Origin: Siphonodentalium dalli | Lineage: Eukaryota; Mollusca; Scaphopoda; Gadilida; Siphonodentaliidae | Direction of reading: 5' to 3' | NCBI GenBank assembly: GCA_032622095.1 | Contig: CP136069.1 | Span: 159,701,043 to 159,765,042 of the forward strand | DNA length: 64,000 bases | Shown here: one piece after another, positions 15,001 through 54,800 of the stretch | How positions within the stretch are numbered: the first letter of the stretch is position 1 | Layout of the letters: each line of letters begins with the position of its first letter | Made by a program: the position numbers and the translations under genes | The notes under the pieces: model-generated | The model's database searches: none | The model's input: the letters and a program-made list of their open reading frames with translations, nothing else | Told to the model about the DNA's origin: nothing

Positions 15001-18000
15001 CAATCTAAAAAAATAGCATAACAGTCAGTGATTCCAACTTCTGTGGGCCGGGCTGTGCATTGGTCGATTCGAATCTCAATCATATTCGATATTTCGGAAT
15101 CAAGTTGAAAATGAAAGCGTGTGTTCACCAGTACAGAAGGGGAATAAGATTAGTTTAGTAAACTAGATCACTTAGATCGCTTAGATGATCATATTCATGT
15201 CCCAACAACGTTCAAAACAGAAATGACGGCAATCGTATTTCCTGTACAATTTAAATGAAACGCACGGGCGCCGCTGAAAACACATCGATTTTTTAGCCAA
15301 TCACAACGATTATTTCTAGAAGAGGTGCCTCGAAAAGTCAACGGGGGAATTTCATAACAAGACAAGACATTACCAGAGTACTCCATGCAAAGAAATCGAG
15401 TACGCCCAATACGAATTACACCACGAAATGTTTTCTCACCTGAGACCGAAAAAGCGGTGTATTTCGTTGACTATTCAGTCGAATTGTGACCATAAACTTT
15501 CAGTCGTATTACAAAAGAAATAAATACACGGTGTATCGGTGTGTATGGTCAAGTTGTACCACAAAAAACTGATTGTAGGACTCCGCTACGCGTCGTCCTA
15601 CAATCAGTTTTTTGTGGTACAACTTGACCATACACACCTCTACACCGTGTATTTATTTCTTAAATACAGGTCAAGTTCGAATTTGAGTTTGATCCAATGA
15701 TTTTTCCCAAAGTTATGGGCCTTTCGACTTCAAATTTTTTTTTTATAATTTTCTGTTTTTCTGTGTGAGGTTACCTTCATGGTGTAATCAACTCCTCCTA
15801 CAGTTTTGATCGTAGATATTTGAAACTTCCTTTTTTTTGGATGCTATCACACTCGACAAAAGCCATCTTAGATGTTAAGGTTGCGTTTCATTTTCTACCC
15901 TTTTTTTGGTTTCTGCAATCATTCGAACAAATATGAACCAATATCAAAATTATTAATCCAAATTTTTCTTTAACTCTTTCGCTGCCAAACGCGCATAAAT
16001 GCGAACTTCGCAGACGCTGCCAATCGCGCATTTTTGCGAATTTGATATGTAGTCTAATGTATGGGATATAACTCTATTCTTTCCGGCATGTTTGACAGTG
16101 TACAATGTATTTATCTGTAGTACTGTTGCGCGCGAACAATTTAAAGCCACAATGTGTTCAAGGTCATGCTATTTCTGACGTTATGGGAGTACAGTCAGAG
16201 CCAGATATTGCGTCATTGTTGTTAGCACGTGGTTATCAGTCGAAAATGGCCGCTCGCAAAAGACTCAGGACTGAAGAAGTTATTGTTATTACCTCTATAC
16301 TCTAATGATCGAGGGGCGCCTGCGGCGCATAAGATACTTATACCTATTATTTATGTGGGCAGTAGCCTCTATAGGGGCGTCTGCGGCGCATAAGATACTA
16401 TGGGTGGCGGGATGGGGTGGTAACTAACCTCTATACTCTAATGATCGAGGGGCACCTGCGGCGCATAAGATACTTATACCTATTATTTATGTGGCAGTAG
16501 CCTCTATAGGGGCGCCTGCGACGCATAAGATACTATGGGTGGCGGGATGGGGTGGTGGATGGGTAACTAACATCTATACTCTAATGATCGAGGCGCTCAT
16601 GCTGCACATAAGATACTTATACCTATTATTTATGTGGCAGCAGCCTCTATAGGGGCGCCTGCGGCGCATAAGATACTATGGGTGGCGGGATGGGGAGGTG
16701 GGTGGGTAACTAACCTCTACACTCTAATGATTGAGGGCGCCTGCGGCGCATAAGATACTTATACCTATTATTTATGTGGCAGTAGCCTCTATATATAGGG
16801 GCGCCTGCGGCGCATAAGATACTATGGGTGGTAGGATGAGGAGGTGGGTGGGTAACTAACCTCTATACTCCAATGATCTAGGGGCGCCTGCGGCGCATAA
16901 GATACTTATATCTATTATTTATGTGGGCAGTAGCCTCTATAGGGGCACCTGCGGCGCATAACATACTATAGGTGGTGGGTAACTAACCTCTATACTCTAA
17001 TGATCGAGGGGCACCTGCGGCGCATAAGATACTTATACCTATTATTTATAATACACCTTTACTGGTTTTGAACAACCCTTGTCTATTGTATCGTTTTCCA
17101 GTGGTGATAACAGGCAACTAAATTAATTATGCTGGTGAGTTGACCACGCGTACGTCCGCGTGACCCATATAATTCACATAAATCATTGTAAAACCCAAGT
17201 TTCCTGAAATTCAAGATGGCCGTCAAGATCATGTGACTTATAAGGGGCGGAGCAGGGTCATATGTCCCCCTGCAGGTATATATACATATTGGTATGGTTA
17301 TATATATATATCTATATTTGGAATTGTACCTATCAGGGAATATTCAAGCAACAAAAGCACGAACTCAACAAAGTGCGCCATTGTATCCCATTTTCCTACA
17401 AATAGGTGGCAACTTACATAAATCCAAGATGGACGCCAAGGTCACGTGACCTATTTTATGTCCAAAGTGGGTTCATATAGGTTACTCCCGTGTACCTTAC
17501 TGTTGGACATCGTATAATTGGGTTGAAAATTAGAAAACAAACAACACACCCATTCATACCCACACAAACTGTACATATACCGGCAAATAGCCACTAATCC
17601 AAGATGGCCGCCAATGTCACGTGACCTTGGTGGGCGTGTCCACGGCGGCATTCGACAGGGTATACCTATGTCTATATACATGTGAAGTTTCAACTAATTA
17701 TTTTAGAAACTGCTTGAGATATAATGTATTACCCATATATGCCTGAAATACATGGATATATGTACAGGATGCGTGGCACTGGGGGGTACGTCTGTGGTGG
17801 CGGGTGGCAGCGAAAGAGTTAAAGTTAAAAATCTTTTTTGTTGGGTTTACGGATAATGCGGGTTTAATTTGCCACGGTGGGGGTATGCTAGCACTCGAGT
17901 GCACACCTCTTGTTTATATTTTATTTGGTATTTTATTGAATAAAGTTAAATTAATCAATAATGAGTTGCTTGTGTTTCGACAACTCTTTGTAACACCTCT

Positions 18001-21000: not shown

Positions 21001-24000
21001 TATTGACTTCTTATATATATATTTTTATTTCCTCTAGCTAGGAGAGTATTATCTTTAATAAAACTTCTGAATTTTGATTTTTTGATACTCACTTGTATAA
21101 AATTTTGACCTTGCAGGATGTTAAATTTTCTATGAATCTAGATGTCTATGATCTGTGTTCAGAAGAGCTTCAAAAGAAACTGGTACCAGCGAGAGATAAA
21201 TTCAAACAAGCTGAAGACAAGTTTCTTGAAGATGCTCAAAAGGTATATTTTGCTTTATCAACCACTGGGGTTAAAGTTTTATTTATCCCCTGCCCGAAAA
21301 TTTTCATCGGGGGGATACAGGAATGGGTTTCGTCCATCTGTCGGGGAGGGGAGTCTGTCCATCCCAAAAAGTTGTCCGGGAGTTATTTCGTACAATTATC
21401 AACAGATTTCAAAGAATTTTGGTATATGAGTTCACAAAGCGAATATCTTAAATGAGTTTTTAAACTAGGCCCGGGCAGATATTTTCACCAGCGTTACAGC
21501 CCTTTGATTGTCATATTTTTGAAAAGTTGTCCGGGGTGTTATTTCGAACAATTATCAACATATAAAATATTAGTCTCCCTTTAATTAGTTATCTGAGGTC
21601 AAAGGCACCTGTCGCATAATATTCCCCTGGCCATTATATTCCCCTGGTCATGTGAACATATGTTTACCAATTTTACTACATATCTTTTAAGCTTATAAGG
21701 AATGCTCTGTATTGCTCATTTATGCCCCTTCACAGATTACACAGATGCACCTCTGATAACCATTAAAGAAAGCCAGCAAACAGATGCACGGAATTTGTCC
21801 GGAATTTAGCTTTGGCACGCACCCCGTTGAAACCACATTCGTCTATATCATCTTGTTCGCATCATATCAGTAAAACATTGACTTGATAACCCCTTTGGGA
21901 AATGCATTATATCTCAGGTTGTCTTGCACCGATTGGCCTGAAATTTTGCATGTCTTATTCTGAGATGTGCCGCAGGATATGGTAAAAGTTTAGGTGCAAT
22001 CGGACATTAGGGTGATATATTTTTAAATGCACTAAAATCGTGACAAATAAACACTTGGTTCCATCTATAGATAGATTAATCTAGCTATATTAACCTAGCA
22101 TTTTTAACTTTAATATATCTAACTTGTTTGTTATGGTTATTTTAGCATGTTAAACTATGTTAACATAACATCTTAGAAATGTTACTCAATGTATGTTTAA
22201 CTACGCTAGAAAGATTTTCAAGTTCCCAGACCTCCAATGACAACATTTTTGATGCAGTTGATTTTATTAATGAATAATCACATGATTAAATACACCAGCT
22301 CTGATCACATCATTTTAAGATTGCAAAATATAATGACATATATGCTCTACTTAATTACTTCAGGCAAAGGCAGCTGGTAAAAAATTAAATAAGGAAGCGC
22401 CAAGTGATGGGCCAATGGAACCATATGCATTTGATGATGGTGAGTTTATCATTCTGCTTCCAAATTCCTATAAAACTCCACATAACATTCCTCCATTATT
22501 CCTTCACACGATTTGCAAGTACCATAACCGAATTGGAGCAATCTCAATCAACTTCATTGCCGCCACCTGCCATAGAATTCAAAGGAAAATTAAAACCAAA
22601 ATTGATCAACAAAATATCGTCAAAAATGTAGTGTCCAACGAGACTACGGGTGCCCCTAACAAGAAGTACGCCTGCTGTAGATGATGCGATGATACAATGC
22701 AAAGCACAGGTGTTCTTGCATCATCGCCAGCAGAACTCTAAATTTAAAAATTCATACTATAAGGCCAAGCCAGAGTTTAGTGAGCTTGTCATTTGCAGAA
22801 TGAGGTCCCCAGAGGGTGAATTTAGCATGGCAGGCTAGCATCACTAAATTCACCCTCTGGGGACCTCATTCTGCTTAGGCCTCATCTTCTCCGGAAAGTT
22901 TCTTTATTATCAAATTTCTATAGAAACTTATATTCTATTTCTTTTTTAGTTTAGTCTCTCTATATCCCCAAAATGGCAGACGACACATTGCATAATCAAG
23001 GGTTCCCAATGGGTGTACATCACAATCATCACCATTTGGGAACTTCAATCTGAGTCTATGTCTCTCATAGCTGATGAGGCCATGCAGAATGAGGTTCACA
23101 GAGGGTGAATTCAGTGATGCTAGCCCGATATGCGGGATAGTATCACTAAATTCATCCTCTAGGGACCTCATTCTGCAAATGACAGGCACACTAAACTCAG
23201 ACTTGTTTAAGGCCAAATAAAAAATTTCATTTGAGTCTCAGACACTGCCACATTGAAATAAATGGCCAGCTTTGGCCATATTATTTTGATTTTTGATATT
23301 ATGACACAAAAAGTTGAGCTTCAGTGTCACTGACACTTTCATTTTACTACCTTGCCAGAATAAAATATCTTCTTCAAATACTCAGTGGATTATACAACAT
23401 AGGTTCCATTTTTAGCTCAACTTACTTTGTAAGTTTGAGCTATTGCCATGGTTTGGCGTCCGTCGTCTGTGTGTGCGTGTGTCCGTCAACAATTTCCTTT
23501 GGCGCGGGATACAGGTCGTACCTTTGTTCTGATCTTTATGAAATTTGTCATGGATGTTAATATTGACATGTAGATGGGAACGAGTGATTTTGGGGTCGTT
23601 CGGCCATAAAACATGGCCGCCAGCAGCCATCTTGGATTTTACTCTTTGCATGACTAAATCCTTTGGCGCGGGCTACAGGTCGTAGCTTTGGTCGGAACTT
23701 CATGAAATTTGTCATGGATGTTAACAATAACATGTAGATGGGAACTAGTCATTTTGGGGTCATTCGTCCAAAAAACATGGCCGCCAGCAGCCATCTTGGA
23801 TTTTACTCTTTGCATGACTAAATCCTTTGTCGCGGGCTACAGGTCTTAGCTTTGGTCAGATCTTCATGAAATTTGTCATGGATGTTAACAATGACATGTA
23901 GATGGGAACAAGTCCTTTGGGGTCAATTGGCCAAAAAACATGGCCGCCAGCAGCCATCTTGGATTTTACTCTTTGCATGACTAAATCCTTTGGCACAGGT

Positions 24001-30896: not shown

Positions 30897-33800
30897 CTGT
30901 AAAACAAAGGTATCAATGTGTGGACAGAGATGAATAAAGAGGTGTCACTGCTACAATGGGAGTACGTATCCCCCACATGTGCATACGGCTCACAAATTTA
31001 GAATCCATGTCCCCCAACAAGGTGGCTTTTACCAATGTTGGCTTTCTGAGGGGATATTGACTTTAAAAAAAATTATATTTTCTGAGTAGAGGTAACTTAT
31101 GTCACAATCTGGAAACTAAAATAATCACAGTTGAGAATGAATATGTAACTTTGACAAAAATGTTAAGTTTCTAAGTCTAAATAAACTCGAAGCATCGAGA
31201 ACCAGAGAGTATATACCTAGCGTCAACATGACAGTGGGAATAAGCCTGAGTTTAGTGTGCCTGTTATATGCAGAATGAGGTCCACAGAGGGTGAATTTAG
31301 TGATGCTATCCAGCATAGGAGACATAGACTCAGATTGAAGTTCCCAAATGGTGAATATTGTGATGTACACCCATTGTCATGTACACCTCGATTATGCAAT
31401 CTGTCGTCTGTCAATTTGGGGAGAGAAACTAAAAAAGAAATAGAATCTATGTGAAGAAGTTTCTATAGAAATTTGATAATGAAGAAACTTTCCCGAGAAG
31501 ATGAGGCATAAGCAGATTGAGATCCCCAGAGGGTGAATTTAGTGATGCCAGCTCGCTATGCGGGATAGCGTCACTAAATTCACCCTCTGGGGACCTCATT
31601 CTGCAAATGACAGACACATTAAAATCATGCTAGAGTGCGAATCAAGATATTGTCATATGAGAGTCCAATGATGTGCGCCTACTTCAGATAGAATTAAACC
31701 CTTTCTTTACTAAATACCCTTTTGGCGACAAGTTCTTTTAGGAAGTGTTCGGATAATAAGTTCAACAACAATTATTGAACTTATTATCTGAAAATTTCCC
31801 ACCAATCAATAGGATTCCTTCTGCACTTTTATTATCTGTTGTCCACTTATTTTTCCTGAATACCCCTCCAAATGAATAAAAGACCATTCCATGTATACTT
31901 TTTTAGCTTGGTGGGAGAATCCATTTAGTATAGAAAGGATTAAATATGCACAGTATGTCGGCTGATGTTCATGCTGAGTCTATGGCTGTGGGCCAATTTG
32001 AACTTTTATCCAAAGTTTTGCGGATAAAAAAAAAAGAATCCAGCAATATAAATTCCAATTTAGAAAATGAGACTGCTACAAGATCTGCTGATCAGAGGTG
32101 GATGTTATTACTCGCACCAGTAAATGGACGCTTATTGTCCCCCGAAAAAAAATTCGGGGGACTATTAAAATAGCCGGTGTCCGTCCGTGCGTCTGGAAAT
32201 GGTTTCCGGATGATGACTTTAGTTTCGGTTATTAGATCAAAAGCAAATTTCATAGGTGAGTTTATCAGACCAAAATAAAGGTCAAGTTCGAATATGGGTT
32301 TGCTGCGCCCATTTTTGCAAGAGTTATGGCCCTTTTTTTACTTAGAAAACCCCTGAAAGTTGGTTTCCGGATGATAACTTTATATATACTTAAAGGTACT
32401 CAATCCGATAAAACTCCTCTCAATTACTATTTCAATGGATTCGGGGGTCAAAAATAATTGATTCGAGTCGAGGAAGTCACCCATCAAAGATCAGATTTGT
32501 TAGATATCGATTTTAGAAATCTATTATTTTTTTCATTATCGGGAATACTATCTGGCCCAGAACTCAGTCAAAATTGCGTTATTATTACCACTTGATTTTA
32601 GAGTTATCCATCCTTGTCTGTTTGAATAGATTTTGGTGTACACATCCAGAGCAGATTACGGCAGTTGAAGGCAATTATTAGTACTCATCTCGAGTAAATA
32701 ACAAATTTCAAAAATCAATATCTAATAACTCTGAGCTTTGTTTGATGGGTTCCTCGACTCGAATCAAATATTTTATACCCCCAAAGCCAAAGAAATAGTA
32801 ATATAGGACCCTCTGATCGGATTGTTGTTGTTGGAATCTGTTCAGATGGGGACCCTCTGTTCGGATTTTTGGTAATAAATCTGTCATATTAAATCTGTCA
32901 TATTGGAAACCAGTAAAGGGGTCATGACATCACGACGCATATCATGATGTCACAACCTAACTCCAGACAGGACTGCATCGATGACCAGACAGCTGAGACT
33001 CGCATTACACAGACAGGCTAAATGATCCAACAGCTTCGTGTTTTATTATAATACATATTACATGCAAGGAAAATAAGTGGGCAATAATACTGCCCATTAG
33101 AAGCCCATTTATTTAACTTGCAACTTGGAAAATAAGTAATGATCGCACCTAAAAGATGCTTGCGGAATAAAAGACTAGCCCATGCCCGGATATACAATAG
33201 ATATTCAACAGTTGTCACCTCATGATAATAAGCAACATCTCAGTGAAAATAGCGATGACAACTAACACACCTCATTACTTTATTAGTGGGCGACAAAGAG
33301 TTATTGCACTTGGTTAAGCGGATTTATGTGATTATAATTATATAGAATGTTAGATTTGTGTTTGCGAATTTTGTTTTAATTTCTATTGTGAACCGCCCAG
33401 AAAATGAGGATTTAATTTGGCCAAATTATTTCTTTAATTTGGACAATAAAATTTTCATTTGGCATTAGACAGGTGTTGATTATTTTGATGTATCGTTACC
33501 ACTCAGCTGTAGAAATAGTCCCAGATAGGCATTGATTATTTTGATGTATCGTTACCACTCAGCTGTAGAAATAGTCCCAGATAGGCATTGATTATTTTGA
33601 TGTATCGTTACCACTCAGCTGTAGAAATAGTCCCAGATAGGCATTGATTATTTTGACATATCGTTACCACTCACCTGTAGAAATAGTCCCAGATAGGCAT
33701 TGATTATTTCAAAGTTCTTGTTAGATTCCAGAATGTTTTCCACAAGCTTTATGAATGAACACATAACTGATATGGATCCACCTGCATCTGGGGCCAGAGA

Positions 33801-36800: not shown

Positions 36801-39800
36801 GCTAGTCTGAATTTAGAGTGAAAACAAAACCAAACCTAACCACGTGATTTTGGTAAAATAAAACGAACCACAGGTTAAAAATAATAAATACCAGTCCCTA
36901 TGATGAACACTGAAAACACTGGACAGTGTATATAATAGAAAAACATAATATAATACATGACAGGCAGACAAACAGATTATACAAGTGCAGAAGGATGCCT
37001 AGTAATTGATGAGTAATGTTCAGATAATAACCCACAGACAGTTTGTTAAAACTTATTATCTGAACATTTCCTAAGGGAACTACTCAGCATTGAGTATTTA
37101 GAAAATAAAGTGTTAATATAACAGACACGAATCTAATTAGATACTTTGTTATTGTACCTTATCCTTATCTATGGAATCGTCATCATAAGCAAATTTTGGC
37201 TGCAGTCCAGCAATGGTCGGAAGGAAGAAAGGTGCTGCTTTAGGTGCCTTTGGTGGTTCTTTTGGTTTATTTCTTTGCTGAAAAGAATAACTACATTTAA
37301 AGAGATACCCTTTTCTCATTTGAAGAATTTTAATGGTGCAATCAAGTCTTTAAATAGTGTGTCTATCATTGGAGGAATGAGGTCCACAGAGGGTGAATTT
37401 AGTGATGATATCCCACACAGTGGGCTAGCATCACCAAATTCACCCTCTGGGAACCTCATTCTGTTTAGTCATCATCTTCTGGGAAGTGTCTATTGTCTCA
37501 AATTAACATTGTTTTTAGTTACTTTTTCCCTTCTGTTCAGTTTCTAATCCACTAATTTGCAGAAGATAAAAAGCAAAATCAAGGTGACTAATGGGTGAAC
37601 ATCGCCAACTTCAAATGGGTAACTTCAATCTGATCCTAGGTCTCCCATAGCAGTCGAGGCCTAAGCAGATTGAAGTCCCCAGAGGGTGAATTTGGTCCTC
37701 TGTGGACTTCATTCTGCAAATGTCAGACACACGATATCCAGGTTTGGTATCTTTTCAGTAAAATATCAACAACAATGGTTGAAAATCTTCATAATGACTC
37801 ACCTTTATCACATCCAGGTTAATAACTCACTTCATAATGACTCACCATTATCACATCCAGGTTAATAACTCACTTCATAATGACTCACCTTTATCACAAC
37901 GAGGTCCAATAAGTTAAATCTTCATAATGACTCACCTTTATCACATCTATGTTAATAACTCACTTCATAATGACTCGCCTTTATCACATCTATGTTAATA
38001 ACTCACTTCATAATGACTCACCTTTATCACATCTATGTTAATAACTCACTTCATAATGACTCACCTTTATCACATCCAGGTTAATAACTCACTTCATAAT
38101 GACTCACCTTTATCACATCCAGAATAAATCACATAATGATGACTCACCTTTATCACATCCAGGTTAATGACTCACATCATAATGACTCACCTTTATCACA
38201 TCCATGATAATAAATCACATAATGATGACTCACCTTTATCACATACAGGTTAATAACTCACATAATGATGACTCACCTTTATCACATCCATGATAATAAA
38301 TCACATAATGATGACTCACCTTTATCACATACAGGTTAATGACACACCATTGTCACATCCAGGTCATAATGACTCATCTTTATCACAACGAGGTCCAATA
38401 AGTTGAATCTTTATAATGACTCACCTTTATCACATCTATGTTAATAACTCACTTCATAATGACTCATCTTTATCACATCCAGGTCATAATGACTCACCTT
38501 TATCACATCCAAGTTAACAACTCACTTCATGACTCACCTTTATCACATCAAGTTTAATAACTCACCTTTATCACATCCAGGTTAATGACTCACCTTTATC
38601 ACATCCAGGTTAATGACTCACCTTTATCACATCCAGGTTAATGACTCACCTTTATCACATCCAGGTTAATGACTCACCTTTATCACATCCAGGTTAATAA
38701 CTCACCTTTATCACATCTATGTTAATAACTCACTTCATAATGACTCACCTTTATCACATCCAGGTTAATAACTCACTTCATAATGACTCACCTTTATCAC
38801 ATCCAGAATAAATCACATAATGATGACTCACCTTTATCACATCCAGGTTAATGACTCACATCATAATGACTCACCTTTATCACATCCATGATAATAAATC
38901 ACATAATGATGACTCACCTTTATCACATACAGGTTAATAACTCACATAATGATGACTCACCTTTATCACATCCATGATAATAAATCACATAATGATGACT
39001 CACCTTTATCACATACAGGTTAATGACACACCATTGTCACATCCAGGTCATAATGACTCATCTTTATCACAACGAGGTCCAATAAGTTGAATCTTTATAA
39101 TGACTCACCTTTATCACATCTATGTTAATAACTCACTTCATAATGACTCATCTTTATCACATCCAGGTCATAATGACTCACCTTTATCACATCCAAGTTA
39201 ACAACTCACTTCATGACTCACCTTTATCACATCAAGTTTAATAACTCACCTTTATCACATCCAGGTTAATGACTCACCTTTATCACATCCAGGTTAATGA
39301 CTCACCTTTATCACATCCAGGTTAATGACTCACCTTTATCACATCCAGGTTAATGACTCACCTTTATCACATCCAGGTTAATAACTCACCTTTATCACAT
39401 CGAGTTTAATGACTCACCTTTATCACATCAAGTTTAATGACTCACCTTTATCACATCAAGTTTAATGACTCACCTTTATCACATCGAGTTTAATGACTCA
39501 CCTTTATCACATCCAGGTTAACAACTCACTTCATGACTCACCTTTATCACATCCAGGTTAATGACTCACCTTTATCACATCGAGTTTAATGACTCGCCTT
39601 TATCACATCCAGGTTAATGACTCACCTTTGTCAATTCCAGGTTAATGACTCACCTTTATCACATCGAGTTTAATGACTCACCTTTATCACATCCAGGTTA
39701 ACAACTCACTTCATGACTCACCTTTATCACATCAAGTTTAATGACTCACCTTTATCCCATCCAGGTTAATAACTCACCTTTATCACATCCAGGTTAATAA

Positions 39801-42800
39801 CTCACCTTTATCACATCGAGTTTAATGACTCACCTTTATCCCATCCAGGTTAATAACTCACCTTTATCACATCGAGTTTAATGACTCACCTTTATCACAT
39901 CCAGGTTAATGACTCACCTTTATCACATCCAAGTTAATGACTCACCTTTATCACATCGAGTTTAATAACTCACCTTTATCACATCCAGGTTAATAACTCA
40001 CCTTTATCACATCCAGGTTAATGACTCACCTTTATCACATCCAGGTTAATGACTCACCTTATCACATCCAGGTTAATGACTCACCTTTATCACATCGAGT
40101 TTAATGACTCACCTTTATCACATCGAGTTTAATGACTCACCTTTATCACATCCAGGTTAATAACTCACCTTTATCACATCCAGGTTAATAACTCACCTTT
40201 ATCACATCCAGGTTAATGACTCACCTTTATCACATCCAGGTTAATGACTCACCTTATCACATCCAGGTTAATGACTCACCTTTATCACATCGAGTTTAAT
40301 GACTCACCTTTATCACATCGAGTTTAATGACTCACCTTTATCACATCCAGGTTAATGACTCACCTTATCACATCCAGGTTAATGACTCACCTTTATCACA
40401 TCGAGTTTAATAACTCACCTTTATCACATCCAGGTTAATAACTCACCTTTATCACATCCAGGTTAATGACTCACCTTTATCACATCCAGGTTAATGACTC
40501 ACCTTTATCACATCCAGGTTAATGACTCACCTTTATCACATCGAGTTTAATGACTGACCTTTATCACATCGAGTTTAATGACTCACCTTTATCACATCCA
40601 GGTTAATGACTCACCTTTATCACATCGAGTTTAATGACTCACCTTTATCACATCCAGGTTAATGACTCACCTTTATCACATCGAGTTTAATAACTCACCT
40701 TTATCACATCCAGGTTAATGACTCACCTTTATCACATCGAGTTTAATGACTCACCTTTATCACATCCAGGTTAATGACTCACCTTTATCACATCGAGTTT
40801 AATGACTCACCTTTATCACATCGAGTTTAATGACTCACCTTTATCACATCCAGGTTAATGACTCACCTTTATCACATCCAGGTTAATAACTCACCTTTAT
40901 CACATCGAGTTTAATGACTCACCTTTATCCCATCCAGGTTAATAACTCACCTTTATCACATCGAGTTTAATGACTCACCTTTATCACATCCAGGTTAATG
41001 ACTCACCTTTATCACATCCAGGTTAATGACTCACCTTTATCACATCCAGGTTAATGACTCACCTTTATCACATCGAGTTTAATAACTCACCTTTATCACA
41101 TCCAGGTTAATGACTCACCTTTATCACATCGAGTTTAATGACTCACCTTTATCACATCCAGGTTAATGACTCACCTTTATCACATCGAGTTTAATGACTC
41201 ACCTTTATCACATCCAGGTTAATGACTCACCTTTATCACATCGAGTTTAATAACTCACCTTTATCACATCCAGGTTAATGACTCACCTTTATCACATCGA
41301 GTTTAATGACTCACCTTTATCACATCCAGGTTAATGACTCACCTTTATCACATCGAGTTTAATGACTCACCTTTATCACATCGAGTTTAATGACTCACCT
41401 TTATCACATCCAGGTTAATGACTCACCTTTATCACATCCAGGTTAATAACTCACCTTTATCACATCCAGGTTAATAACTCACCTTTATCACATCGAGTTT
41501 ATTGACTCACCTTTATCCCATCCAGGTTAATAACTCACCTTTATCACATCGAGTTTAATGACTCACCTTTATCACATCCAGGTTAATGACTCACCTTTAT
41601 CACATCAAGGTCCAATAAGTTTTGCCATCGTGAATTTGGTAGCAGAGAGAGGGTGATCAGTTCATTTGAAATTTGTTCTCTCGACTTGAATTCTGACATC
41701 TCGTATTTTTCTAATTCTTCTGAAGACTCCTCTTCTTGTTCTGTGAAACAATGAAATCATGAAAATGTCATAATGGGCAGAGCATAGTGGTTGCTAGAAG
41801 ATGCAATCATCTCCTCAAATACATTAATTAGTTTTACAGCCTATGCTTATGCAGGTTGACACACACAAGAACATACATTGTTCTAATCTTTAGTAGTGAA
41901 ATATTCATGGATAAATTTGCAACGCCAGTGCACAAATCACAAATTCAGTAAATTAATATTTGAAAACAATTTTTTTTTTTAATACAGTCAAACTTGCCTT
42001 GAAACATGAATAAGATTCCTTTGTGCGGATCAATATTCTGTGTTAACCGGTAATAATCACACCATCTGCATTCACACAATTAGCTTCAGTAAGAACCCTG
42101 TTTTTAAGTTATTAGGTCTAAATTAGGAACAGTCCCAGATAGGCATTGATTAAATAAAACAAATGGTCTTGTATATATATAGAATTAGTGCATAATAAAT
42201 TAATCAGATTCCTTTGTGTGGATCGAAATTATTACAGGAATTGAACCAGAATCGTTATTGCAGGATAGATTATGAAGGCTTAATGTACTTTGCACCTTAT
42301 TTGGTTAGAAGGAACTAAATGTTTTACATATGCCTCAGTGTTAAAGTTTGGCCACGCCCACGCTAAATTCCAAACTGAGCTACTAAAATCACCTTGTGAC
42401 AATCTTCCAGCCGCTGGCATGTGTAGAGTAACAGGAACATAATCTGAGGGCAAAGGTCGCAGGGAGACATGTGTGAACAATGTCATATTGGACCAGAGAT
42501 ATACCCCAATGTCGTCTACATGAGATGTCGCCAGGAAATCTCCAGTTGGTGAGAAAGACATCGAAGTTACAGCCAAGTCAACAAGAAAACAATCAATCAA
42601 CCTGAAATTTATTGAATCGAAAAATAAACAATCGATCAACCTGAAATTTATTAACAATAACATTAAACCTTCCATGACTGGAGCTTCCTGAAATATTATG
42701 AAAACCTTGTTCCAATCCTATGGGAGACTTGCATATATAAGAGAATACATTGGCCTTGCAATATTTACCTTGACCTGAAAAGCCAGTGCATTCTCTTATG

Positions 42801-45800
42801 TATATGATAAATTTCTTCTCATGATATTTTCATTGCAAAATGTATGGATCAAAAGATGTTAATATTTCGTTGACAAGAGCATCAATAGGGTGTGGCAAAA
42901 TACGCCCCCTGGTAATTTCAACAAAGTGCTATAACTCTGGTCAAAATTGGTGGTCGGAACCCAAATAAAAAATTTACCTGTATATTACAGGTATATTAGG
43001 CTAGTAAATTCACATACCAAATTTCATTTCATTCAGTTCAGACTTACTAAAGTTATCATCCGGAAACAGAAAATGTGTGCAAATTACAACAAAAAGGGCC
43101 ATACTCTGGTGAAAATTGAAGGACAGAACCCAAATTCGAAGTTGACCTGTATCTTGTACTAGTAAACCCACATAACAAATTTCATTCCATTTAGTTCAGA
43201 CTTACTAAAATTATCATCTGGAAACGAAAAAGCAAACAGACGGATGGATGGACTAATAACAAAATACAACCATTTTATATTCAAAACAGGCAAATATTAA
43301 AAGGTAAATTGCAATGAGAGGTCGCAAATCAGTTGATGAGGGTGAAAGTTGACTTTCATGAACTTAATTAGTTACTTTTTTAGTTAGCTTGCACAGAGAA
43401 AATTGGGGAGGAGAGTTTACTCATAATTACTCAGTATACCTACCTTCCTGTAGGCATGTCCCATATTCGGACAGATGAATCCATAGATGATGTTACAAAC
43501 CATCTCGCATCTGGACTGTATGTCTGAAAGTGAAAGGGTACAAAGTAAGTCCATGGATTCACATACCTTACAAAATATTCAGGATAATGAATGTTTTTTT
43601 GCAGAATTTGAGATAATAAAGTTCTGTTATTATTTTGAGATAATCAACATTTACTCAAAAGGTATGGAAACATCCATGATAAGGTATTTTGTGGAAAAAT
43701 GTTTCTGTTATTATTTTTCTCAACTCTGTGGACATCATTCTGAAAATGACAGGTACACTATTTGCAGACTTGTGCCCCTTTATGACTTACCATATCTGTT
43801 ATCACATTTGTGTGACCTGTGAAACTCCTGACCACATTTCTTGTGTCTATATCAATAATTACTACACTAAAGTTATCCAGAGAAACAGCCAACATGGAAC
43901 TGAAATGGACAAAATATTCTCTATTAAAAAAGGCAATCAAGGTAAGAAAAATGCTGACAAGATTCTGTATCTATTCCAGATATAGTTTCAGGGTATGGGA
44001 GACTCACATATATAAGAGAATGCACTGGCACAGGATTTTTAGTGCAATTTTTTCTACCTGAGTTCTGGCCCTTAGTTTGTCTAATATATTTTTAGCAAAT
44101 TTAAGACCTTCAGCATGATTTCTTGAACAAACATCACCGAAATCCATTTATATTTAGTTCTCTATGGAGCTTCATATGGATTGTTAACAACTGTATCTCA
44201 ATCGAGTTGGCTCACCTTTCTCTATGGAGCTTCATACGAGATAAGTATGAGTCTAGTTTTATATCACTTCCTAATGCTTCCTTTGTTTTAAATCTCCAGA
44301 ATTTTACACAGCCATCTGCTCCACCTGTCACCACAATCTGATTAAGACTGTCCACACATAATCCACGGACAGCATCATTATGAGCTGCAAAAGACATGGA
44401 AGACTGTAAGCAACTCTGGATATAGTGAGTAGGACATTTGCAAAAGGAGGTCCCCAGAGGTGAACTTTGCAGTTGATAAACAATTGGAGATTGTGAATAA
44501 AGAACTTGAAGAGAGGAATGTTATAAGGTAGCTAGAAGAGAGCGTGCATCAACGGGAGAAAGCAAAGGAGTTTGAAATATCAAAACTCTCTGTGGAGGTT
44601 AGCTAGCCTGGATATAGTGTGTCTGAAATTTGCATAATGAGTCCCTAGAGAGTGAATTTAGTGACATTATCCCGCACAGTGGGCTAGCATCACAATATTC
44701 ACTCTCAGGGACCCATTGTGCTTAGGCTTCAACTGCTATGGGAGACCTAGGATCAGACTGAAGTTTCCCAGTTAAAGTTGGTGATGTTCACCCTTAGTCA
44801 CCTCGATTATGCATTTAATCTTCTGCAAATTAAGGGATATAGAAACTTCCTAGAAGGCAAAAAGTGACTAAAACAATGTTAATTTGAGACTAAAGATACG
44901 TCCCAGAAGATGAGGCCTAAGCAAAATGAGGTCCCCAGAGGGTGAATTTGGTGATGCTAGCCCACCGTGCGGGATAGCATCATTATATTTACCCTCTGGA
45001 GATCTCATTCTGCAAATGGCAGACACACTATTTGCAGGCTTGCCAATTAGCAATTTTACCAGTGATAAAATGCTGATAAGTTCACCGGTCAACCACATAT
45101 TTTACCACTGAGAGGGGTAACCAATGTTTAAACTTCGCTATTCTGACATGGTCCCTATCTTGGACAGGTATTAATTTACCTTGGGGATTGCCAACGCTTC
45201 CTCTGTGGAGACCAGATTGTAGATTGTAGATGTCTACATGACCAGAGCTGTAACCTATCACAACGAAGTTACCGCATGACGTGATGTCTGCACACTGCAA
45301 GGATAAAGCAGCGTTAAAAGAATCAGAAACCAAAATATTAGGCTTTGCTTTTTGCAAATGGTACAAAGCCTGAAAAAAGACCCACATTTGAGACAAAAAC
45401 AAAAAGAAAGTGTCAATGACACGGAAGCTCAACTTGATAAAGGGTCTATTGTCAAATGTTACAGTTAATGAAGTGATAGAAATGCCCAAATACTAAACAC
45501 CCAATGGATTTAGTCATACAAAGAGTAAAATCCAAGATGGCCACTAGAAGCAATGTTTTTTAACAAAATTTGGAAAAAATGGTAAGCTGCCATCTATATG
45601 ATGCCATATTGGCATAAAACATAAAAAAAGAAAAAACCAAGGAATCAATAGTTTTTTTTGTGATCTCACCAGAGCTGCTGCTTGACAATGATCTGGTCCT
45701 GATTTGAATCTACTGTGTTTCAACATGTGTTCACCCATTGTGGCTCGCTGATAACTCCATGTGGTGGCCACACATACATTTCTATGACAAGCTACAATGT

Positions 45801-48800
45801 TATCCCAATCACTCTGTCGACATGGTTCTGTAAAAATAATAAACAGTACAGAAAACAAACCAATAAAATATATGTATGCAATGTCACACTATCAATACTA
45901 ATGGAAGGTATTTCCATTATATGACTTAATATCTCATGTATATGGGTAAAAAGAGTTTGTGCTATATAATTTATATACTCCCAATTGCTTCTTCTACGAA
46001 TCATATCTTAGTTCTATTTAGTGAATGAAAAACTAAACATAACACATAAACTAAGTAAAAACTAAAGATGTTTAACCTTTCTATACTAAATGAAAGTTAT
46101 GAAAGTACATTGGAATGGTCTAGTATTCATCTGGAGAGGTTTTCAGAAAAACTAAGAAAATGACAGGTAACTAGAGGTGTGACTGTCCCAATGGGACTAC
46201 GGATACCCCCGTTTTTAAAATACTAAGATGTTTCACATGTCAGTGAACATTTAGTTAAAATAATAAAATAACAGTTCCCATTGCAGGTGTACAATCATAA
46301 CCCTAATCTTAAACCTATTGACCGAAAAATGTAGGAATAAAAGCTTGGACAAAATTATGTATTTTGCGAAAAAAAATCTAAGTCGAAAAAGGGGAATAAC
46401 TCAACCAAAAAATGTCGGACAGACGTCATAATCGCAGGTGCAAAAGTTCCCATGGTACTAAATATATGTGCCACATTTTAAAAAAATTGACCGAAAAATG
46501 TAGGAACGGACGGACAGACAAGCTGACTCCAGTATACCTCCCCTAACTTCGTTGCGGGGGGTATAATAACAAGTACAGAAGGAATCCTAATTATTGGTAG
46601 GAAAACGTTCAGATGCTATGCTATGTGGGTTGCGTCACAAAATTCACCCTCTGGGAACCTCATTCTGCAAATGTCAGGCACCTTATTCTCAGGCCTGGTT
46701 TTGTGATGCTTATGAAAATATTTTAGAAACCCAAATTGAGTATTATTTTTACCTGATGTGAAGTGCACAATGGGTGGCATCTCATGTGTGTCATGTTTTA
46801 ATCCCTGTCGTCTCGACTTAGCTTTGTTGTATGATGCTCTGCCCAAGCTTTTATTGTGCTTGTCGTGAACCACAGAGAATGATCGTAGAGTACTGTCTTG
46901 ACCTGAAATTTAAAAAATAGTTGTATGGAAATTTCATTTACATGTTCTTTATAGAGGATCTCTAATGAGTCGCAATTCTAGACAAAATTTATTAATCGAG
47001 TGCACTAAATTTTGCCAGACTCGAATCAAATTTAGTGGATGAAGTTAACAAATTTTGTATAGAATTGCAACAAATTTGAGATCCAGTTGATCACATAATC
47101 ACAATTTAGCAAGGAAAAATGACCTCCAAATGGCTGGAGTTAAAAAACATTATTATTGATTTCCTTATCACAAATTGACTGTATTCACAATCAAAGAGGA
47201 AGTAACGGCACCTTCAAGAAAAAATACAGTTGCATTATAAATGTGTCTTTTCATGTTGACAAAATTGTTCAATCACCCTTATCACCCATGTTTATTACAC
47301 AGTCAACACTAAATAACCCAACACAAATTGAATGCCATAATTATATTCTAATTAACATAATAGTAATATTGATTGATATCATAGCGCTAAGCTCTTACCA
47401 TCACTGGGCATACCGATAACAGATGTGTGTCTTACTAAAAAATATGAGGCTGGGTTTAGGGGCTAATTATGTGATAAAATAATTGTAAGGTTAATTCACA
47501 AGAATCAGAGTACTGTATACACCCATCTGTAAGCCCATCCTCGAAGATAAGCCCAGTTCAATTTTGTTTTAACCCTAAATAAAACATGGGGTGCTCCTCG
47601 TAAATAAGCCCATAAGTTTTAATAAGAATTAGCTAGATTAATAAGCATTAGTGTAACTAAATTAACTTGTGAACACATCATATAACCAACCCTATTGTGT
47701 TTACAAATTAATCCCAAATTTACAACCTTATTTAAATTGACCCCAAATGTATCTGTCTATCACTGTTTCTGGTTATTATCATGTGATTTTATCTTCTTAA
47801 CTAGAGGTGTAAATGTCCCAATGGGACTAAGGATACCCCCCCCCTGTGTTTTTAAAATACTAAGATGTTTCACATGTCAGTAAACATTTAGTTAAAATAA
47901 TAAAATAACAGTTCCCATTTCAGGTGCACAACCCTAACCCTAATCTTAAACCTATTGACCGAAAAATGTAGGAATAAAAGCTCGGACAAAATTATGCATG
48001 TTGCGAAAATGTTCTAAGTCGAAAAAGGGAAATAACTCCACACAAAAAAGTCGGACAGACATCATAATCGCAGGTGCACAGGTTCCCATGGTACTAAATA
48101 TCAGTGCCAATATTAAAAAACATTGACCTAAAAATGTAGGAATAAAAGCTCGGACAAAATTATGCATGTTGCAAACAAATTTCTAAGTCGAAAAAGGGGG
48201 ATAACTCCACCAAAAAATGTCGGACAGACGTCGTAATCGCAGGTGCACAGGTTCCCATGGTACTAAATATTGTGCCAAGTTAAAACAAAATTTACCTAAA
48301 AATGTAGGAATAAAAGCTCCGACAAAATTATACATGTTGCGAAAAATTTCTAAGTCGAAAAAGGGGGGGGGTAACTCCACCAAAAAAAGTCTGACAGACG
48401 TCATAATTGCAGGTGCACAGGTTCCCATGGTGGTTGATGTCTGTGCCAAGTTTCACGGAAATTGATCAAAAAAACGACTGAGAAAAACTCCGGACAAATT
48501 TGTGTCCACGGACGGACAGACGAGCTGATTCCAGTATACTAATATAAATACTAATCCAGTATAAGGCCACATAAAAATGCAACTTCGTTTCTCAAGGACC
48601 GCCGTGTCTTAAAAAACTGTGCGCATTGGCACTTTTTATCGCCGGCTTATAATAAGCTTACTACCCTACCGCGCGTTCCAAATTTTCACTGTTGAGATTG
48701 GCAGGATGAAAGCAATGTAAGTATATACGGTAGAGTTATGCCTCTTTGGTGGTAAAAGTACACCGGATTCCGGGCTGCGAGATCGAGCGCACCTCCTCGT

Positions 48801-51800: not shown

Positions 51801-54800
51801 ATCAATTACTCATTTAGAGGGGTGTTAACCCTTTCATGACCAGAGCTGTGCTGGTGTAGCACTAAAGACCTTGTGCCAATGCATTCTCTTATATATGTGA
51901 GTCTCCCATAGGGAGCCTCACATATATAAGAGAATGCACTGGCTTACAATATCAAGGTAGATATTGTTAAGCCAATGTATTCTCTTATATACGCAAGGCG
52001 CAAGGGCGAGCCCGCATATATAAGAGAATGCATTGGCACAGGGTTTTCGTAAAATTTCCATTTGGAAAGATAACCACACAGTCAAACACACAATAAATAC
52101 AAGTGCAGAAGGATTTCTATTACTAAATTGGTGGGAAATGTTCAGATAATAAGTTGAGATAATGTTTGTTGAACTTATTATCTGAACACTTCCTGAGAGA
52201 ACTACTCGTCAATGAGTATTCAGCATAGAAAAGGTTAGGCAAAAACCTTAAGAGAGTTGTCTGGAGATGATGTGGTTAGTAGTGGTTCGTTCGGGAGGCA
52301 CTGCAGTCCAGTTATAGTGCTGTTATGTGCATCTCTGATCTGGCTCTGTAGCTTCTTCTCCTCAAGATTCCATAACGCTATGTGGCCATCCGTACTCCCC
52401 GATACCATTATGGGGTGTCCATCTGTTCAAAAGAAACACGCACAAACTCGTTACACATGAACCATAACACTATGTGGCCAGCCATACTCTGATACCATGA
52501 TGACATGCCCATCTGTTCAAGCTAGTTACATATGACCCGTAGATGTTTGGGTGTCAAACAGCCTTATACTTTGGATTGTTGAAATTGGGGGGGGGGGGGG
52601 GGGGGGGGGGGGGTGTTACTAGTATTTAAGGGGCCTTCCTTCATCCATTAAAATGCACTGTGGATGTTCTAAAACATTTTCTTTCAAAATTTATTTCCAA
52701 TCTTGGATCAAATGAAAGCCCTATCAATCTGTGAATCAATTGTTTGGATTCACAGATCAATTCCATTGCAATCCGATAATCCATGGTTGAGATATCTAGA
52801 ATCTGGAAATCATTATTTCATCTTGTTAATTAAAGTAAAAAAGTCTAAGCCTATAGCAATTGTTGGGCATATTTGTTGAAAATTCCCAATTAATATTCAT
52901 CGTTTTGCAGCAATTTTGACATTATATTTAATAATTTATTTTATTAATTTATCTTTAAATCTCCTTGAGCAACTTAATTATACCACATATCCTCAAGAAG
53001 AAACCAGAATCGGTCTAGCAAACTTTTAAAAAATAATCTCACAGGCTGGGACAAGTGTATTTACACAATATAAAAGAACGGGTATGTAATAACATTATGA
53101 TAACACATTATTTCTTACCTGTTCTGAATGATATTTGCTGTGACTGCTCCCCAGTCTTGTCTAAACTTTACAATCGTTTCGTCAAACCTGATGTTATGCA
53201 GGATAATTTCACCATCTGATAGTCCGATGGCAAACAACATCTATTGCAGGAGCCTGGTGTAAAAATAAAATAAGTCATTTTAATACCACTGATTTCATTT
53301 TATAGTATAATCAAGATGTGGACTATATTATATATATATATTTATTATATGGCTTCCGCCATTAAATAAATAGTGGGGAAATTATATCCATCACCAGTTT
53401 TGGTGAATTTTATAATGTAGCACATATAATAAAAAGAACACCTGCAGGTTTTGGTTTAATACCCAGACTCAATCAAGGATACACGGAAATACAGAATTTC
53501 CACTCGTGGCTGAAATCACTCATAGAAATACTGTATTTCCTTGTAGCCACTCATGAGATAATCTGGGTATTCAACCAAAAGCCGTGAGTATTCTCTATAT
53601 GTCAGAGTTTATGGATGCACGGACTCAGTATGAGTGTTCATTGCTTCAAATGTGCTTAATTGAGTGAGCGTGAACAAATTCTCAGTTCTTATCGTAATGG
53701 CCATGTCTCGATCGGAATGGCACATTGAGATGTCCCTCAACTCAGATCAAGCTTGAAATTTGGTCCCAATTATAAAAGAGGACCAGCCTAGAAGTTTCAA
53801 ATTGGGAGAAGTAATAATTTCTGAAGTTCAAGTTTTCACCCCAACATCACCCTTTTGTGATCCAATAAGTAAATAAGCCATAAAAGAGCCAATTTATAAA
53901 CCATTATAATGAGTAATGCACCATTTTATTATATGCTAAGCTATCAAATAGTAGTATTTTTCAACAGGATAAAAACCGCTATCCGTTCTAGTGAGATATC
54001 GATATCTCACTCGTATCCATCCGCGCTAAATGAAAAGTGATTCGGTTCTTGATGGAACACTGCCATAAGTCTGATTGTTCAGGTTGAACAAAACTTTAAT
54101 ATGTGATCAATTAAATATGTTTTTAAACATACTATGATGATAGCCCCTTATCCTCAACTAATCTGTCTGAAAAATGAAACTACTTTTATATGCGCAAGCT
54201 CATTACCATGGCTGTGCTTGTGTATACAATTGTTTTTGCACTTTTTACTCTTCTTTCGAGTTGAGTTATGGGCCAACTGAGCGGAGCCTATAATAAACAG
54301 AACATCTATACTTTTTGGTTGGATATGGGTAATTATCTCATTCGTGATGACAAAAACAATTCATTTTTTTTGTCATCACTCATGAGATAATTCCCATATC
54401 CAACCAAAAAGTGTAGATATTCTCTATGTAATCAGCTAGTATATACACTGTTTGGACATAAGCATTTGAGACTCAGAGAAGACACTTCTCCCTGGGACAA
54501 AAATAGAAAGAAGTGGCACAATTTGGGGAGAAGATATCTCCCAATCCACCCTCTAGGCTGGTCCTCTCCCAAGCCGCCCTCTAGGCTGGTCCCTGTGTTT
54601 GAAAATATATTTTGACAATCTGCCTCATGAACATTGTATACAGTCATATATACTATATATCTATCTATTGTCTCAAATTAACATTGTTTTAGTTACTTTT
54701 TCCCTCCTTGGGAAGTTTCTATATCACCTAATTTGGCAGAAGATAAAATGCATAATTGAGGTGACTAGTGGGTAAACATCACCAACTCAACTGGGGAAAT

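Follow-up and report, generated by a model that had tools for sequence, protein, structure and literature searches.

Most of one intron of the WDR36 gene of the scaphopod mollusc Siphonodentalium dalli is occupied by a minisatellite in which an exon end joined to an intron start, with its predicted 5' splice site (donor), is repeated in series. The gene lies on the minus strand of a 64,000-nucleotide stretch of contig CP136069.1 (positions 159,701,043 to 159,765,042), and this whole stretch is called the window hereafter. We propose, with a probability of about 0.72, that a duplication of the exon end and intron start was amplified within the intron, that the array is close to neutral and that the donor nearest to the exon wins over its copies. 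The features on which this reading rests, in window coordinates, are as follows:

41595..41740, minus strand: WDR36 exon ending in NLLDLDVIK and followed by GTGAGT, taken as the source of the array (in-frame open reading frame, match to human WDR36)
37158..37277, minus strand: next WDR36 exon (QRNKPKEPPK...), at the downstream end of the array-bearing intron (in-frame open reading frame, match to human WDR36)
37786..41611, minus strand: donor-bearing minisatellite with 122 donor-like sites, from Tandem Repeats Finder (TRF) and a donor-like scan, with the real donor at 41595/41594 inside its first unit
39222..41611, minus strand: exon-proximal part of the array by unit lengths, units 1-84, all of 28 or 27 bp except two of 40 bp
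37786..39221, minus strand: distal part of the array by unit lengths and self-hits, with 43-, 40-, 30- and 47-bp units mixed with 28-mers

The gene is WDR36, as an earlier note on this DNA had stated. Fourteen exons within the window join into a frame of 657 residues (the 5' end of the gene lies outside the model), which matches the WDR36/Utp21 Pfam models and aligns with residues 301-951 of the 951 residues of human WDR36 (E 2.9e-225). The motif LDVIK, which the note had called conserved, is identical at the corresponding place of the human protein, where it is followed by KKNKPKEPPK and here by QRNKPKEPPK. The exon junction from 41595 to 37277 is therefore in frame and in place, and the exon does end within the first unit of the array, at the real donor 41595/41594. 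The 657-residue open reading frame depends on this first donor. Aligned to human WDR36, the junction shows no gained coding copy, and no new intron splits the coding sequence in the manner of an intron gain.

A minisatellite of about 3.8 kb with units of about 28 bp had been claimed, and both the TRF run and a minus-strand donor scan (at most three mismatches) bear this out. The array is continuous from 37786 to 41611 in a window that contains zero N, and its TRF score of 3532 puts its reality beyond doubt; TRF reports a period of 43 at 37787-39031 and a period of 28, with 109.9 copies, at 38529-41611. Between the 122 sites found by the scan, 108 of which are perfect copies of ATAAAGGTGAGT, lie 121 units of 29 distinct types, namely 87 of 28 bp, 18 of 43 bp, 6 of 40 bp, 4 of 30 bp, 3 of 27 bp and 3 of 47 bp. 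The earlier estimate of donors on the order of 130 holds for the hexamer GTGAGT, which occurs 131 times, but not for donors that match the strength of the real one, which number 112 with the real one included. With the first unit counted, the array makes up 3.8 kb of the 4.3-kb intron. The first unit holds the authentic donor together with exon sequence, and near-identical donors follow in the downstream units, which is the arrangement of human F7 intron 7.

In the 28-bp unit, GTGAGTCATTA supplies the first 11 bases, from the intron start, and ACCTGGATGTGATAAAG the remaining 17, from the exon end; ACCTGGATGTGATAAAG is identical to ACCTTGATGTGATAAAG of the exon at 16 of 17 positions. The unit had been described as exon end joined to intron start, which is correct, with a split of 15 and 13 bases, which is nearer to 17 and 11. 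Longer unit forms cluster at the far, exon-distal end of the array, and the boundary between its two parts (39222/39221) was placed by the sum of unit lengths. All three 47-bp units are in the distal part; they carry AACTTATTGGACCT, the preceding exon bases, at donor positions 37935, 38424 and 39108, as had been noted for longer units at this end, together with further intron bases (GTGAGTCATTATGAAGATTT in one and GTGAGTCATTATAAAGATTC in two). The units at 38424 and 39108 belong to a duplicated block, the two copies of which share one order of unit lengths and lie 684 bp apart. The last array unit passes directly into the intron sequence GTGAGTCATTATGAAGATTTTC.

Judged from the letters, the exon is the source and the array its descendant, as the note had held, because the three 47-bp units retain extra exon and intron bases and because a second, collinear WDR36 copy has about six units. 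The idea of a satellite without relation to the exon was rejected, since the 47-bp units bear further exon bases in register. A DNA query of the genome also spoke against it: its 36 matches all fell in this array or in the second WDR36 copy, a number that does not prove rarity as the query skips very common words. The simplest history would begin with a tandem duplication of about 47 bp across the WDR36 exon end and intron start. The 43- and 28-bp units would have been derived later from this 47-bp unit, in an order of events that we infer, and unequal exchange or slippage may then have expanded the array to about 122 units inside the intron.

The second WDR36 copy is found 229 kb away on the same contig (G000:C9:159.955-159.984 Mb, L005-L007). 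A protein search of the genome gave close exon matches in these two WDR36 clusters only, and three further hits had 23-28% identity. By an exact-match rule, 10 of the 14 exons were located in the second copy, where they are 96-100% identical, and the DNA alignment of the two copies is a mosaic of about 83-99.7% identity. The exon end is unchanged in the second copy, in which the array measures about 225 bp and has six donor sites, the last being AAAG/TTGAGT. The locus is thus present in a 6-unit and a 122-unit state, whether these are alleles or duplicates. Local pairs are likewise seen for several CCT exon matches in the assembly, which makes unmerged haplotypes likely, although many local duplications may also account for such pairs.

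Donors were scored with a weight matrix built from 73 donors of other genes, and AAG/GTGAGT ranks at their 97th percentile. Of the 416 GT sites of the array region, 112 equal or exceed the real donor in score, a count that includes the real donor itself. In three other WDR36 intron stretches (4290, 2420 and 2530 bases; 9.2 kb) no site reaches the real-donor score, and 3, 1 and 1 sites, respectively, exceed the median of the donor survey described below. Over positions -3 to +6, most decoys do not differ from the real donor, in agreement with the claim that many near-consensus 5' splice sites stand just after the real one; strength over these positions cannot tell the real donor from its 111 equals, and position and flanks alone can. 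Among the decoys, 113 score no lower than the survey median, and splicing at any one of them would extend the protein by three residues before a stop, at a cost of 180 C-terminal residues; the frame is kept open by none of the 113. Because every decoy has the same stop outcome, leakage would yield a single protein outcome and a likely target of decay. By inspection, 6 of the 17 bases ahead of the donor (ACCTGGATGTGATAAAG) are pyrimidines, and the units appear to lack the polypyrimidine tract before AG with which units of the UBC type double as 3' splice sites. Recursive splicing was rejected on the same ground.

The array of predicted donors at WDR36 is not unique in its genome. Three AAGGTGAGT at short spacing gave 424 genome matches vs. 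55 for a reversed control, and the corresponding pattern of three CAGGTAAGT gave 1387 vs. 451, counts that are dominated by a few long arrays, with the control motif itself at about 20 places. Among the matches listed, 12 of 13 places for the first pattern and 6 of 7 for the second were examined, one 78-kb cluster counting as one place. In nine of these 18 places the first donor stands where an open frame stops, apparently the end of a coding exon, and a clear acceptor opens the frame in seven of the nine (all except L010 and L100). Firm matches among the nine are to SLC6 (L016, E 7e-14), USP47 (L101, E 6e-12) and PPP1R12A (L104, E 1e-5; no Pfam match), and weak matches below the cut-off are to a zinc finger (L010) and SLC6 (L011), while the exon-end frames at L009, L014, L018 and L100 had no usable protein match. 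No exon was found in the fetched flank of six arrays (L008, L013, L015, L017, L103 and L105), L012 is ambiguous as to an exon, and L019 and L102 lie inside satellites that extend past the fetched sequence. The array at the SLC6 transporter exon L016 (C4:245134600-245138200) has 58 units of 40 bp, and that at L018 (C5:5779200-5781900) has 45 units of 26 bp beside an open frame with a chance-level OCIA match only. A donor array of about 10 copies of 39 bp was also found in a CCT gene (L037), which supplies one of the five covered donors of the survey below. Two of the listed matches, C3:73127613 and C3:73527613, lie exactly 400,000 bases apart with identical letters, which may reflect a duplication or an artefact of assembly or search.

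The assembled genome is evidently rich in local tandem duplication, as is seen in a survey of 80 exon matches of three families that were taken without regard to repeats (among the matches listed, 40 of 53 CCT, 26 of 53 DEAD-box and 14 of 85 myosin). Apparently intronless or repeat-like matches and those nearly identical to a place already chosen were excluded, and from the rest the selection was made by hand. Each locus was taken with 400 bases on each side, boundaries were set by score and frame or by eye, and a boundary was called covered where a local ungapped direct repeat spanned it. Covered were 5 of 73 donors (6.8%) and 2 of 77 acceptors, compared with 4.3% of 53,066 intron points (3.7% without boundary-linked repeats) and 1.9% of exon points. 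Dinucleotide-shuffled versions of the first 40 loci gave a covered fraction of 0.0000. The excess of donors over introns was not significant (P 0.20 against 4.3% and P 0.13 against 3.7%, with points treated as independent). By set, 3 of 36 donors and 2 of 38 acceptors were covered in CCT genes, and 2 of 37 and 0 of 39, respectively, in DEAD-box and myosin genes together. As the survey donors are close to the intron background, no special boundary mechanism would be needed for such arrays.

Several points define how these counts should be read. The boundaries at L024, L036, L057, L058 and L059 were re-placed after their repeats had been seen, and three of them (the L036 acceptor, the L057 donor and the L058 acceptor) belong to the seven that count as covered, which may have biased the result towards coverage; the L058 acceptor was already covered at its first placing. 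Duplications seen by eye near the L024 and L059 donors fail the definition above and were not counted. Outside the denominators are the donors of L040, L046, L055, L056, L063, L069 and L083 and the acceptors of L035, L055 and L082. A first, cruder pass gave 4 of 32 donors, 2 of 33 acceptors, 77 of 1282 intron points and 25 of 568 exon points. Repeat detection by self-comparison with BLAST (2 of 36 donors, 0 of 38 acceptors) was dropped for the ungapped scan, as it missed duplications obvious by eye. By the survey definition, 2 of 13 donors and 2 of 14 acceptors of WDR36 are covered, the array reported here included.

Based on these results, we propose that the WDR36 array is an extreme outcome in a genome of many local tandem duplications, of which splice boundaries may get about their share. 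The exon-proximal donor would be the one used, because the frame is lost at every one of the 113 decoys and because the real donor is transcribed first and stands at the exon edge, where pairing across the exon may occur (F7 is reported to follow oriented scanning or exon definition). Oriented scanning is reportedly the subject of an F7 paper by Borensztajn (2006). The use of the most upstream donor only in F7 provides a precedent for such first-donor use (PMC6627357). The decoys would depart with the intron, and leakage into any of them would lead to a premature stop three codons on and to nonsense-mediated decay, so that an array whose decoys are lost with the intron and whose leakage is removed by decay would be close to neutral.

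Some observations weigh against this proposal. Classic competition experiments often favour the donor nearest to the 3' splice site, which predicts use of the decoys. The nine donor positions from -3 to +6 have no common variant in the 87 units of 28 bp, whereas 3 of the 19 other positions have one, and this invariance could hint at constraint; the units were picked by a donor-like anchor, which is a bias, and the numbers are too few to decide. The survey is also small enough that a twofold excess at donors could escape it.

We consider it unlikely that splice boundaries are instead special hot spots of tandem duplication, with R-loops or U1-bound nascent RNA as possible causes. Both triple-donor patterns exceed their reversed controls (424 vs. 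55 and 1387 vs. 451), nine of the 18 arrays examined start at apparent exon ends, 6.8% of the surveyed donors are covered, and the cruder first pass (4/32 donors vs. 77/1282 intron points) leaned the same way. The match counts, however, are driven by a few long arrays, and the strong boundary enrichment that they first suggested was not confirmed by the final survey (5/73 donors vs. 4.3% of intron points, with the P values above, and 2/77 acceptors); its second half alone gave 2/37 donors and 0/39 acceptors. An assembly artefact or an over-expanded consensus is very improbable; local near-duplicate copies of several genes in the assembly, where haplotypes may be incompletely separated, would be in keeping with it, but the array varies internally in an ordered way (29 unit types, with unit lengths that change in order along it), a short version exists in the second WDR36 copy and the same form recurs at other exons.

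It is also improbable, in our judgement, that the array serves as a splicing rheostat in which decoys compete, transcripts stop early and decay, and copy number (6 vs. 122) tunes the output of WDR36. The 112 sites at real-donor strength, their uniform stop outcome and the different copy numbers of the collinear WDR36 copies would suit such a role, as would the reported correlation of F7 repeat number with mRNA level (PMC3492156). In that correlation, however, more repeats go with more mRNA, the opposite of a simple decoy model; a large loss of output should be costly for a ribosome-assembly gene such as WDR36, and similar arrays occur in unrelated genes, as mutation rather than function would give. 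A broader speculation, to which we give little credence, is that donor-derived minisatellites are, in this genome, a recurrent and fast-changing class whose length is a heritable dial on gene output. Such a dial may act via decoy competition and nonsense-mediated decay, or via massed U1 binding on the nascent intron, and if it exists, WDR36 with 6 vs. 122 units would be the extreme case.

Other splice boundaries of WDR36 in the window are also duplicated:

33476..33709, minus strand: second donor-spanning array in WDR36, 56 bp x 4.2, with the real donor CAG/GTGAGT at 33675/33674
42602..42660, minus strand: duplicated acceptor (AATAAATTTCAG/GTTGAT, period 39) before the exon at 42601
52423..52520, minus strand: duplicated acceptor and exon start (period 90) before the exon at 52422

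All three extra copies of the array at 33476-33709 have a dead donor, CAG/CTGAGT, and this array is absent from the second WDR36 copy. Both acceptor duplications have more repeats in the second copy, roughly 5 at the counterpart of 52423-52520 (not an exact count) and 3 at that of 42602-42660. A degenerate duplication after the donor at 44216, which falls below the survey definition, is plainer there. At 42125-42145, a 20-base piece of the last-but-one exon (ATCAATGCCTATCTGGGACT) reappears in an upstream WDR36 intron. Further tandem arrays of the window are at 16291-17049, 23495-23994 and 47954-48431, with periods of 143, 164 and 168 bp.

Among the arrays examined and the portions of the literature consulted, the WDR36 array is the longest run of 5' splice sites of equal strength. 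Together with the 6-unit copy on the same contig and the other arrays that stand where exons of SLC6-, USP47-, PPP1R12A- and CCT-like genes end, it offers a natural dose series for the choice of the spliceosome among identical donors. That 5 of 73 sampled donors lie within a local tandem duplication would be useful to gene annotation, as exon fragments recur in introns.

Each repeat of human F7 intron 7 bears a pseudo-donor. This is consistent with the published statement that, of the several 37-bp repeats, the first contains the F7 donor and that normally the most upstream donor alone is used (PMC6627357). The F7 repeats number four to seven, vary in copy number and correlate directly in number with mRNA level (PMC3492156, in which O'Hara and Grant, 1988, Marchetti, 1992 and Pinotti, 2000 are cited). 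As far as these accounts go, F7 and WDR36 share the same architecture, an authentic donor in the first repeat of an intronic minisatellite, and differ in gene and in size, four to seven 37-bp repeats vs. about 122 units, most of them 28 bp long; that only the first donor is used is reported for F7 and proposed for WDR36. Unlike the F7 case, the WDR36 array stands in a genome with similar arrays in other genes. For human genes in segmental duplications, De Grassi and Ciccarelli (2009; PMC2812944) have surveyed tandem repeats at the borders between exons and introns, and these too are minisatellites of varying number with units of about 30 bp. In the parts of that work consulted, they have about 4 copies, average 160 bp and form novel introns, whereas the WDR36 array extends over 3.8 kb within an intron and leaves the coding sequence unchanged. 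The polyubiquitin gene UBC resembles it in AGGT motifs serially repeated in register, but the UBC sites, at the borders between coding repeats, are described as acting in both roles, 5' and 3' splice site (PMC10809524), whereas the WDR36 units are intronic and have no polypyrimidine tract before AG. Intron gain by tandem duplication, as outlined in PMC4974935, likewise takes in splice-site motifs; in WDR36 the copies stay within the intron and no coding copy is gained. The earlier suggestion that no case of this form had been described does not survive these comparisons, as the kind is already known from F7 and from the boundary repeats of human segmental duplications (PMC6627357; PMC2812944). 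New to the literature searched, to the extent that its sources were covered, appear to be the size of the array (about 122 units vs. four to seven), its pairing with a 6-unit state and the recurrence of such arrays in several genes of one genome.

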